64,000 nt of DNA, from positions 992,001 through 1,056,000 of the forward strand of contig NC_037315.1 of assembly GCF_000143535.2 (NCBI RefSeq). The letters are read 5' to 3'. The notes under the pieces were generated by a model that ran no database searches, was not told where the DNA came from, and saw only the letters and a list, made by a program, of their open reading frames with translations. The number at the start of each line of letters is the position of its first letter. Position 1 is the stretch's first letter. A program made the position numbers and the translations under genes. This document shows positions 31,226-36,137 of this stretch, piece by piece. The stretch is from Botrytis cinerea B05.10 (Eukaryota; Ascomycota; Leotiomycetes; Helotiales; Sclerotiniaceae).

Positions 31226-32921
31226 GGGGCGGAGAGAAAGTTCGGTTCGTACCCGCTGAGTCATTATTCGCAAGTCTATGGCCCTAGGAAGCTATAAAGG
31301 TTATATGAGGACTTACTCGGTATTTGAGACTAGACACCATGTATCATAAACTACAAAATAACTGTATAGTCAGGAACACAAATTATAAATGCCCTATGGG
31401 GAAATATAGCATGTAACGCGTATACATAGCATCTCCACAAAGCTCCAAGAAAATACTAGACATTTGAACGTTAAACTATATATTGACGAGAGAAAAGTCT
31501 TAGAATTTGATTAGGGAGAATATGTTAATGTGAATATAAATTATGATATGTACAATAAGGCTGCTACATTGAACTTCTGACCCTCGCTCTCGCTCTCGCT
31601 CTCCCTCCCCCCCAAAAATCAAAACAAAAACTCACTCGATACCAATCATCTACATCTGTACCCAGATCCGGATCCAACATATCCAGAATCACACAATGAA
31701 CACAACACCACACCTCATATCAACCAATTTTATCATTCATATATGTATATGTATATGTATATCTCCTTTCTCATTCATTTACAGATTCAAAAGCTTCACC
31801 TTGCAAGATGCATCTTGGATGAGTTTATTAGAGCTCGGTGTTTAGAGTTTGGGTTGTGGTTGTGGTTGTGGTGCATATCCATCTCATCTCATCTCATCTC
31901 ATCTTATTTTATTCTATTTTGTTTTGTCTTGTCTTGCTACAAGAAAAAAAGAAAAAAAGAAAGAGAGAGAGAGGGAGAGGGAAAGAGAGAACAACCCCCT
32001 CTCCCCTCCTCTTCAAACAGGTATCTTGTATCTTCCAGCGATAGCACATCAATTTACAGTCTACCTATCTATCTAGTCTAACAAATACACAATACATATA
32101 CACAATAATCCAAAAGCAGAAAAGGAGAAAAAAACATCAGAGCAAAAAAGAAAAAGGAGAAGAAGAAGAAGAAGAAGAAGAAGAAGAAGAAGAAGAAGAA
32201 GAAGAAGAAGAAGAAGAAGAAGAAGAAGAAGAAGAAGAAGAAGAAGAAGAAGAAGAAGAAGAAGAAGAAGAAGAAGAAGAAGAAGAAGAAGAAGACCTCA
32301 AGAAGCACACAAAATCATATACACAATCGCCGAATAAAACAGAACCGAAATAATCAATACACGGGCTCACAACAACGACATGAGGATGTAGCGAAGAAGG
32401 AGAATGTAGCCTTGCAGTGTGAATTTGAGGAATCGGCGTATACGATGGAAGTGAATGAGGGGTTACGTGAGTACGTCAATACTATAATGCGTAGAGTGAG
32501 CAAGTAGTGAATTTGATGGACGATGATTTCGTATGAAGACACATCCAATCGGTGAATTGGAGAAATATCCAATGAATAAATCAAAAATGAGAAGAATTGG
32601 CAAACATAATTTGAGTTGGAGGTACGAGTATGAGAGTACTCGTCTCGGCAGGAGGAGAATATTCTAAACGAAGGGGGAAATTTGTGGATTGCCGAGAATA
32701 CTTGGGAAAAGAAATGAGCAATCAAGAAACCATTTTTACTTAATCTAGAGGTACGAAGAAAACGAGAGATATATTCGATCATCTGTAGTACTAAATATGT
32801 ATGTATTGGTTGCTTTCATTCTATAAAGAAATTCCGATATACTTGCTGAACAATCTATTCCACGAGCGATTCATAGCTAAAATTGAATTCCCTCCTGCTC
32901 TTGCATTGCACAACACAAAAT
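31226..32921. other. Intergenic region with repeats, no recognisable gene
   Basis: Contains TATATG/TATGTA repeats near 31742-31762, TCTCA pentamers at about 31880-31905, GAGA-rich DNA at 31956-31990 and the long GAA tract listed separately. Probably 3' flanks of two convergent genes. Confidence 0.55.
32157..32295. repeat. Uninterrupted (GAA)n tract, about 46 copies
   Basis: 139 bp of perfect AGAAGA repeat, purine on the plus strand. It is the longest microsatellite in the window and gives poly-Phe and poly-Ser open frames on the minus strand. It lies downstream of the Yra1-like gene. Confidence 0.97.
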
Positions 32922-34444
32922 CTACTCAACCATTTCAATATCATCTCCAGTTTGATTGTGCTCTGTAGCTGCAACTGGGGCTTCATTCGCAGTGTCATTG
33001 ACATTATCCTCCTGTTTGGATCCATTTCCGAAATAATCGTCCATCTCGGCATCAAGTTCTTCTTGTGTTTTCTTTGGTCTGCTCTCTCTTGTAGGCCTCT
33101 CTCCTCCACGACCGGCATTGCGATCTCCTCTTTCTCTCCTTGCACCAGGTCTGCGACCATCTCTTCCTCGGCGTGGCAGAGGACTGCGCGAACGTCTCCT
33201 CCTGTCAGGTCGGTCTCCTCGGTCGCCCGGAACATATCGATCAACATTCTCAGGTGGCGGCTTGCTGACATCAGAATGCCTGATTGGAGGAGATAAAGAA
33301 CGAGAACGAGGAATAGTCATGCGATCGGCCAGGGAGCGACCTGATCTCGATGGTTCGTATTGATTTCTGCCTCCACGGCCTCTGGATGGACCGTCTGGGA
33401 CAGACCTCAAACGAATTGGTTGACCTAGAAAGTGTTAAAATAGTTATATATCTAGCATGAATATAGCTTTTACCATTGGCATTTGCCCCATCAAACTCCT
33501 CAATGGCTCTCTGCGCATCTCTTGGGTCCTCATAAGTTACATGAGCGACACCATTCGAACGTCCAGCTCGGTCATAATCAAGCTTCAAGAATGAAACACG
33601 ACCAATGCGCTCGAAAAGACCCTAAATCGTTCTTAGCAACAAAACTCTTTCTGTTCCTTTTCGTATCTCATACCTCCAATTCTTCTTCCGTCAAATCGTA
33701 ATGTACGTTCTCCACCCTAACCTTTCCACTGTTTCTATTTTGTGTTAGCACGAAACGCCGAACGGAAAAGAGCATATTGCATACATTGGTCTGTCATCTT
33801 CGTAGTTGCGTCTTTCCGGGCGATTCGAAGAACGGGCGTCTGAAAGATTTGTGAGCTAGGTGGTCGAGAAAGAACGGAAAGCATGGAAGTGATGCGTACT
33901 TCGATCATCGTATTTGTCATGTACCCATTCGCTAACACTGTTAGTTGATTCTCAATCCTATTGGGAAGGTTAAGACTTACGAGTCTATGTTTCTAGAATC
34001 ATCTCCTTGATATGGCTGCCAAAGGAGAGTAGGCGTGGGTTAGCTATATATTCTATTTACGTACTATCATGAACCATCGAGGCGTCATGCACTGATTGAA
34101 GCAGCGATGCGATCTGAGAACATTCGGGGAGGAATTAAGTATCTGATGATTGAGGAGGTGTATGCACCTAGAGCGGTGAAATGTTAGCAAATGGACTTGG
34201 GACTCGAGACTCGAGGGTCGTCGGAAAGTTTGTAGAGAGGTTCTTACCTTTCTTACACCATCACGAGGGTAGTCATTGCGATTGTTTCTGCGGCCTTGTC
34301 GACCTCGATTTCCACCATTTCTCTGCTGCTTGAAGATATCAGTACTATTTCGTATTGCAAGGCTGAGACAACATGTTCGAGGCGTCGGGTTTTGACAGGG
34401 CTTACCTGGCGATCACCACTAATTTCATCAAGGCTTTGATCCAT
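32922..34444 (-). CDS. Yra1/Mlo3-like RNA export adaptor (ALY/REF family, RRM)
   Basis: Eight exons: 34444-34406, 34328-34248, 34015-33981, 33931-33900, 33839-33785, 33734-33674, 33621-33474 and 33424-32922, giving 317 residues. The N terminus MDQSLDEISGDRQ is a UAP56-binding motif. RGG-type basic residues and SEWVHDKYDD follow. The RRM runs from KVRVENVHYDLTEEELEGLF (RNP2 VRVENV) through GRSNGVAHVTYEDPRDAQRA (RNP1) to IRLRSVPDGP. The Arg/Ser/Gly-rich region and the C-terminal KKTQEELDAEMDDYFG box complete the ALY/REF design. The family couples transcription and splicing to mRNA export by loading Mex67. Intron 2 (34247-34016) is 232 nt against 49-77 nt elsewhere and contains a candidate poison exon. 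Exon 2 has a CAGCAG tandem acceptor. Exon 4 could start 6 nt earlier. Confidence 0.9.
34065..34167 (-). other. Candidate poison exon within intron 2 of the Yra1-like gene
   Basis: A 103-nt cassette is bounded by CTCTAG (acceptor ending 34168, branch GCTAAC about 20 nt upstream) and a GTACGT donor at 34064. The downstream half-intron (34064-34016, 49 nt) has its own GCTAAC branch and GGCAG acceptor. If included, the frame continues as VHTPPQSSDT and stops at 34137-34135. The length is not a multiple of three. Upstream half-intron: 34247-34168, 80 nt. Confidence 0.65.
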
Positions 34445-34764
34445 TGTCAAGTTATGGGAACGAATATGAACTGAAAAAGGGCGGATTTTTTGATATATTG
34501 GCTTGTTTGAGGTGATTAACTCTCATGTACAATGTACAAAACATCCAAGGATTCTTCAATACGTCAACTTTTGTGAGTCGCGACGAGGATTCGACAAGTG
34601 GTCTGTGCACTTGGATCATGTGATAATTCACATGCATTGCATTGCAGCGCCGCAGCTAATCGCTATTCATTCCCTCTCCGAAATCGCAAACTTGTAATTC
34701 ACACAATCTAGATAACAGAATTCACAGATTCAGTCCCTCTTCTTCTTGCATCAAGCTTTTCAAA
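34445..34764. promoter_or_regulatory. Divergent promoter between Yra1-like and 6PGDH-like genes
   Basis: 320 bp separate the two start codons of oppositely oriented genes. No site was recognised with confidence; the segment holds both 5' leaders. Confidence 0.5.
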
Positions 34765-36137
34765 ATGTCACCACTTGCCACTGTCGGTATAATCTCCATC
34801 GGAGAAATGGGTATGGGTGTTGCAAAGTTGCTCATTGCCCATAATTATCGTGTTGTGACGAACATTGAGGGTCGAAGGTTGGTTGTATTATCTTCTATAA
34901 CTTATGTTATCCAGTAGCTGTTAAGAGGGGCTATGATTTCCAAGGGGAACTCATCATTAAACTGGCTCTGATTTCGAAAGAATGGACCAATCTAGCTTGA
35001 GATATGAACATTCTAAGCACAGTCAACTATCATGCTTGGAATGGATTTGGGAGGAGATTCATGACGAATAGGCCAATGTATATTCCGTTTCAAAAGTATT
35101 GAGACGAGAATCTAATGTAGCTTTTCAAACATCAAAGTTGATGGTTGTATATATACACATATGAAAATATCCGTTACTGTATCGTTATTCTACATCGAAC
35201 TCACCTTGTTTCACCTAGCCAAGATACCCATGATCGCGCCCAAAAATCCAAAATCGAACTTCTACCTACAGACACATCCCTAGTTTCGCAGTCGGACTAC
35301 ATTCTCTCGATTGTTCCACCTCGTGATGCACTACCACTGGCAATTCGGATCACCACCGCCTTTAACTCTCTCTCGCCACCGAAATCCTCCCCCCTCTTTT
35401 ATCTCGACCTAAACGCCATAGCTCCTGCTACTGCTCGCTCAGTCGCTTCTCATATTAGTACCACATCACCATCCATCAAATTTATCGATGGTGGAATCAT
35501 TGGTGGTGCACCCAAACTCAAAAATGATACCACTACTCCTAATACCACGGCATCCATTGATCCAGACCTAGAGCATGCTTGGAGCCGCCCTTCAATCCCC
35601 ATTTCTGGACCTCATGAACTTTCTAAAGCTCCTATATCTGGTGCCCATCTAGCAGATCTTTTGAATACCAATTATCTAGGCGAAGAAATCGGCAAGGCAT
35701 CAGGTCTTAAATGTTGTTTCGCTAGTACTACGAAAGGATTCACAGCCTTATGTATCCAAGCATTCACATCTGCTCAAAGACTGGGCGTCTTGGGAGAATT
35801 GGAGAAAGAAATGAGTGAAAGAGTACCTGGATTATGGAAGTCTGTGAATGGAGGAATCACAGGTATGCCACCAAAAGCCTATAGATGGGTACGAGAAATG
35901 GAGGAAATCGGAATTTGTCACGGGGAAACAGGATTCTCAGGTGGAGAGTCCACCGATGGAAAAGGAGAGGAAGGAAAAGGTATCTTTGGAGAAATTGCCG
36001 ACGTTTACCGAAGTGTCGCAGACGAAACAGTGCTTGGAGAGGAGAAAACCGAAAAGAGAAAAAGAGGAAAGACGGTAGAAGATGTCGCTCAATGTATGAC
36101 CGAGGGGCTAACAAGCAAGAGAGCAAAGAAGGAATAG
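34765..36137 (+). CDS. 6-phosphogluconate dehydrogenase-like NAD(P)-binding protein (DUF1932 type)
   Basis: Exons 34765-34877 and 35219-36137 encode 343 residues. The N terminus MSPLATVGIISIGEMGMGVA is a Rossmann dinucleotide-binding motif of the beta-hydroxyacid dehydrogenase type (G-x-M-G). The junction EGR|S-QDTHDRA restores the family sequence. SQSDYILSIVPPRDAL, FYLDLNAIAPATAR, FIDGGIIGGAPKL and IPISGPH follow, then GKASGLKCCFASTTKGFTAL with the conserved Lys of the C-terminal helical domain, and GMPPKAYRWVREMEEI near the end. The substrate is unknown; this subgroup is distinct from true pentose-phosphate 6PGDH. The intron is long (341 nt) and its donor GTTGGT is weak, so another splice form is possible. 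The C terminus is Lys/Arg-rich. Confidence 0.87.

Follow-up and report, generated by a model that had tools for sequence, protein, structure and literature searches.

The 64,000-nucleotide stretch of Botrytis cinerea B05.10 analysed here (the window; contig NC_037315.1, positions 992,001 to 1,056,000) carries on its minus strand, at 32922..34444, a Yra1/ALYREF-like gene, predicted to encode an RNA-export protein, with eight coding exons. The reading frame starts at 34444, its stop codon ends at 32922, and with intron 2 removed whole it encodes 317 aa. Our reconstruction was matched by a gene finder trained on 264 kb of the same genome, with intron 2 excluded from the splice models; 200 kb of this training sequence was centred on RRM genes, so that it is a non-random sample. 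The gene finder returned the same gene and the same 232-nt intron 2, and placed the acceptor of intron 1 3 nt further in. The protein has an RRM_1 match (3e-15) at residues 86-155 and a C-terminal FoP_duplication match (1.8e-07). Among the best 60 of 116 matches, chains of REF2 (RNA and export factor binding protein 2) cover residues 1-159 (1.3e-12), but they are outscored by one chain each of a poly(A)-binding protein and of nucleolin. A central RRM with REF-type flanks characterizes the Yra1/ALYREF (REF) family, and the protein has both. When the genome (42.63 Mb, 18 contigs) was searched with this protein, four of the nine matches lay at the locus and the other five, at best E 9.1e-6, were weak; the search revealed no further close copy of the gene.

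Exon 1 (34406..34444) opens with the ATG at 34444 and is followed by intron 1, whose two tandem acceptors are AAG, up to 34329 (77 nt), and CAG, up to 34326 (80 nt). The resulting proteins differ by a single glutamine where exon 2 begins, and the gene finder favours 34326. Exon 2 accordingly occupies 34248..34328 in the reconstruction, with a start at 34325 in the gene finder, and ends in phase 0 (AGA AAG). A divergent gene is predicted on the plus strand at 34765-36137, its later part matching DUF1932 (8.2e-21). It starts approximately 320 bp from the Yra1 start, and the two genes may therefore share a promoter region. An array of 49 AAG triplets lies at 32148-32295, about 630 bp past the Yra1 stop codon.

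The seven predicted introns measure 77, 232, 49, 60, 50, 52 and 49 nt, and intron 2 (34016..34247) is thus the long one, at 232 nt against 49-77 nt for the other six. In the productive form it is removed whole. It also holds two complete half-introns, each with a GCTAAC branch site. Half-intron 1 (34168..34247, 80 nt, score 24.45) runs from the donor AAG|GTAAGA through the branch TGCTAAC to the acceptor CTCTAG, which ends at 34168; half-intron 2 (34016..34064, 49 nt, score 19.54) runs from the donor ATA|GTACGT, with GTACGT beginning at 34064, through the branch AGCTAAC to the acceptor TGGCAG. Between them lies a 103-nt cassette (34065..34167), an exon with complete predicted splice signals on both flanks inside a larger intron, as a poison cassette would have. 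Exon 3 (33981..34015, 35 nt) can be joined to either exon 2 or the cassette. Inclusion adds ten residues, VHTPPQSSDT, and then an in-frame TAA at 34135..34137, ahead of the RRM. A preliminary description of this DNA had given the same intron lengths, half-introns, cassette coordinates and stop, and the rebuilt gene agrees with it on each. The cassette anatomy is thus well supported; its regulatory role is a prediction. Two variants of the cassette are apparent. A second inner donor, GTAAAT at 34060, overlaps GTACGT at 34064 and scores below it; the two give cassettes of 107 and 103 nt, respectively, with an identical stop. An acceptor CATCAG at 34143 could define a possible minor alternative exon of 78 nt (34065..34142), in frame and without a stop, that would add 26 residues.

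Site quality was expressed as percentiles of 115 introns of 150 nt or less from the same genome, which are predicted, not annotated. On this scale half-intron 1 ranks at the 80th percentile for its donor, the 98th for its branch, the 56th for its acceptor and the 93rd in total, and half-intron 2 at the 30th, 82nd, 23rd and 44th, respectively. The inner donor GTACGT is below average, being preceded by ATA, with no final G. Taken whole, intron 2 ranks at the 77th percentile in total site score. The yeast-type YRA1 intron is long and has a divergent branch site (PMC2911113), and neither TGCTAAC nor AGCTAAC, at the percentiles just given, is of this kind.

Fungal splicing has been proposed to proceed prevalently by intron definition (PMC3925392), and short introns dominate here, with 112 of 135 predicted introns at 113 nt or less and 121 of 135 below 232 nt. 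Given intron definition and half-intron sizes that are common in this genome, inclusion is predicted to be easy and skipping slower. A length-plus-site model, built from gene finder scores and not from kinetic measurement, favours inclusion over skipping by 7.9 bits, and the margin runs from 4.4 to 13.4 bits as the intron cost is varied. The path predicted to be the easy one for the spliceosome is hence the unproductive one.

If the cassette is included, translation ends after 50 residues, upstream of the RRM. The stop ends at coding nt 153 and the last junction is at nt 554, 401 nt away; a poison cassette should place its premature stop far ahead of the final exon junction, as this one does. 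The cassette's own 3' junction and five more junctions lie downstream of the stop. The genome contains matches to Upf1 (2.6e-73), Upf2 (5.7e-26), Upf3 (1.4e-28) and Mago (2.7e-19). Given this machinery and the distance from stop to last junction, inclusion would likely trigger nonsense-mediated decay (NMD) of the mRNA.

These observations suggest a model in which removal of the whole 232-nt intron would yield the 317-residue protein, whereas separate removal of the 80-nt and 49-nt half-introns would retain the cassette and yield a 50-residue product. The cassette-bearing mRNA would then be degraded by Upf1-Upf2-Upf3 together with the exon-junction machinery. In the last and least supported step, Yra1 bound to its own nascent RNA would promote inclusion and so close a feedback loop. 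On balance, we favour the reading that the stop-bearing cassette is a decay-coupled off-switch that caps the amount of Yra1 protein, and in view of the history of the family it is plausible that Yra1 itself is the regulator. The preliminary description had likewise read the exon as a poison cassette. Its anatomy, the rarity of the paired signals, truncation before the RRM and the matches to the NMD core and Mago speak for that reading; inclusion, decay and feedback are at the stage of prediction. A further version, which we consider rather unlikely, would make this export gene off by default: the cassette would be included unless the cell promotes the 232-nt skip, and the abundance of Yra1 would close the loop.

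Among the alternatives, splicing noise survives best, although we regard it as doubtful. In this case the inner sites would be used at times and the cassette-bearing RNA would be an unregulated by-product of a long intron, with no role in setting the Yra1 level. Skipped exons are rare in fungi, at a reported 3% of events (PMC3925392), and the cases of intron retention in yeast may be missplicing, as discussed in PMC2911113. A stop is also near-automatic in a non-coding cassette: 77% of shuffled cassettes carry one in frame, for which reason the stop alone is weak evidence. Against noise, accident would seldom yield paired signals of this quality, surplus Yra1 is reported to be harmful to yeast (PMC4818039) and unproductive intron-containing YRA1 RNA has been reported in three other fungi.

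It is less probable still that the inner sites match by chance and are never used, intron 2 being merely long. Intron 2 is one of 14 among the 135 predicted introns that reach at least 232 nt, of which those above 400 nt may be false. We estimated the chance expectation by exchanging the interior of the intron while its outer donor and the stretch from the outer branch to the acceptor stayed in place. Of 2000 dinucleotide shuffles, none equalled or exceeded the observed summed score of the best pair; of 2000 interiors taken from real non-coding DNA, 3 did. With splice models that left out the introns of this gene, 15 of 10000 shuffles did so, as did 35 of 11544 tiles of real non-coding DNA, which overlapped and came from both strands. 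These models were retrained on 109 introns from other genes, which had originally been found with this gene's other introns in training. Both halves reached at least their observed values in none of the four control sets, by a criterion that is post hoc and fitted to those values. In contrast, both halves exceed the lower quartile by chance quite commonly, in 382 of 2000 shuffles (19%) and 549 of 2000 real non-coding interiors (27%), which speaks for accident. Both exceed the median in 20 of 2000 and 39 of 2000, respectively, and the observed pair just misses this mark, half-intron 2 with its 19.54 lying slightly below the median of 19.82. The score of half-intron 1 was reached in only 4 of 2000 shuffles and that of half-intron 2 in 149 of 2000; the pair is rare because its first half is rare.

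A survey of long introns covered 14 of the 20 predicted introns above 150 nt, six longer than 400 nt being omitted as likely false. Among these 14 (150-400 nt), intron 2 alone has both halves above the lower quartile, and its best-pair sum of 44.0 is followed by a next best of 35.8. Extrapolation from 14 per 264 kb, itself a non-random sample, gives approximately 2300 such introns genome-wide, and roughly 3 to 7 equal sums may occur elsewhere in the genome by chance. The argument hence concerns this gene and not the uniqueness of the arrangement. The paired inner splice signals are rarer than chance gives, and the length-plus-site model, which favours inclusion, also speaks against sites that are never used.

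We consider it very improbable that the intron instead encodes protein isoforms, through an extension of exon 2 to 34065 (+61 residues) or through the 78-nt exon from 34142 (+26 residues). Each stretch is free of stops and divisible by three in length, with the 183 nt giving 378 aa and the 78 nt giving 343 aa. However, 8.4% of shuffles are equally open, the 183 nt have a lower coding score than any of 564 equally long coding pieces and rank at the 15th percentile among 295 open frames of non-coding DNA, and the added peptide is unlike the arginine/glycine/asparagine-rich exon 2. The 78-nt exon has a negative coding score, and both the extended exon 2 and the coding mini-exon were rejected on their low coding scores.

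Recursive splicing, in which a donor (AAG|GTGCAT) would be re-created once half-intron 1 is gone and the remainder would follow in a second step, is just as improbable. The cassette does begin with GTGCAT, recursive-splicing exons are known in vertebrates (PMC6224609), and stwintrons with exon skipping are reported in Aspergillus niger and Neurospora (PMC6616335). However, this donor is poor where it stands in the genome (TAG|GTGCAT): its score of 2.19 ranks at the 5th percentile of predicted donors. The outer donor, at the 80th percentile, is strong. A donor-interrupted stwintron, the one stwintron type tested, was rejected for lack of a good rebuilt donor.

Other candidates were set aside. 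For an RNA gene within the intron, Rfam gave no match up to E = 1 across 32800-34600; for an RNA-structure switch, the fold of the intron was not unusual (z 0.88; 165 of 200 shuffles fold at least as well); and for a mobile or duplicated intron, a search of the genome with the 232 nt led back to this locus alone. Splice-site accessibility within intron 2 was unremarkable, and pairing between the inner acceptor and inner donor regions was equalled by 7 of 100 controls. There are no direct repeats of at least 11 nt in 33981-34330, and a search for relatives in viral contigs gave no match. The 64 residues read through from the intron, used as a protein query in a design that detects only proteins of similar length, matched nothing either.

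A cassette that acts as a decay-coupled off-switch would find its closest counterparts in the YRA1 genes of Yarrowia lipolytica and Cryptococcus neoformans, which belong to the same gene family and whose unproductive RNA rises without NMD. In Yarrowia, the form retaining the 850-nt first intron goes up in NMD mutants (PMC2911113), and in Cryptococcus the intron-retaining YRA1 mRNA is up in a upf1 deletion (PMC5006051). In both, a whole intron is retained, whereas in Botrytis a cassette is predicted to be spliced in, and the NMD dependence reported for these two is predicted here. Saccharomyces cerevisiae YRA1 shares the gene family and intron-based control, the latter being predicted for Botrytis. 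However, the budding yeast branch site is divergent, and the exported YRA1 pre-mRNA evades NMD, its degradation depending instead on Edc3 (PMC2864733, PMC2911113). In Botrytis the branches are strong, and with the cassette included the RNA would become open to NMD. The preliminary description had contrasted the Botrytis gene with yeast as a different mechanism in the same family. The contrast needs softening, given that NMD-sensitive retention of a YRA1 intron is known in Yarrowia and Cryptococcus; a regulatory event of the cassette type would still be new.

In animals, SR genes use poison cassette exons, some of them ultraconserved, and the fungal SRSF5 orthologue is described in the same source with a retained intron and no poison cassette exon (PMC4379411). 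The likeness to Botrytis is a stop-containing cassette in a gene for an RNA-binding protein; the animal exons have been demonstrated in RNA, whereas the Botrytis cassette is predicted from sequence. A stop-containing exon is also present in another RNA-processing gene, Smndc1, for which an autoregulatory poison exon with cross-kingdom conservation and feedback is reported (PMC11357089). The rtnA gene of Aspergillus niger and Neurospora crassa (PMC6616335) resembles the present case in having small introns on both sides of a skippable exon; there, skipping is driven by a rebuilt donor, whereas here that donor is poor and the outer sites would act directly. A survey of splicing in Botrytis counts 7466 events, distributed over 3308 genes, among which exon skipping is the rarest type, and a term search of its main text gave no mention of Yra1 (PMC11857874). 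In a literature search covering titles and abstract openings, no cassette exon in a fungal YRA1 was described. A cassette exon in place of a retained intron is what would be new for fungal YRA1.

Budding yeast, Yarrowia and Cryptococcus, which are far apart, all have unproductive intron-containing YRA1 RNA. If the prediction for Botrytis is true, a poison cassette in a filamentous fungus fills the role that retained introns have for YRA1 in yeasts, and the regulated outcome would have been kept while the splicing event was swapped, as has been proposed for animal SR genes. The same cassette would then offer a clean test of exon skipping by a spliceosome that is thought to use intron definition.
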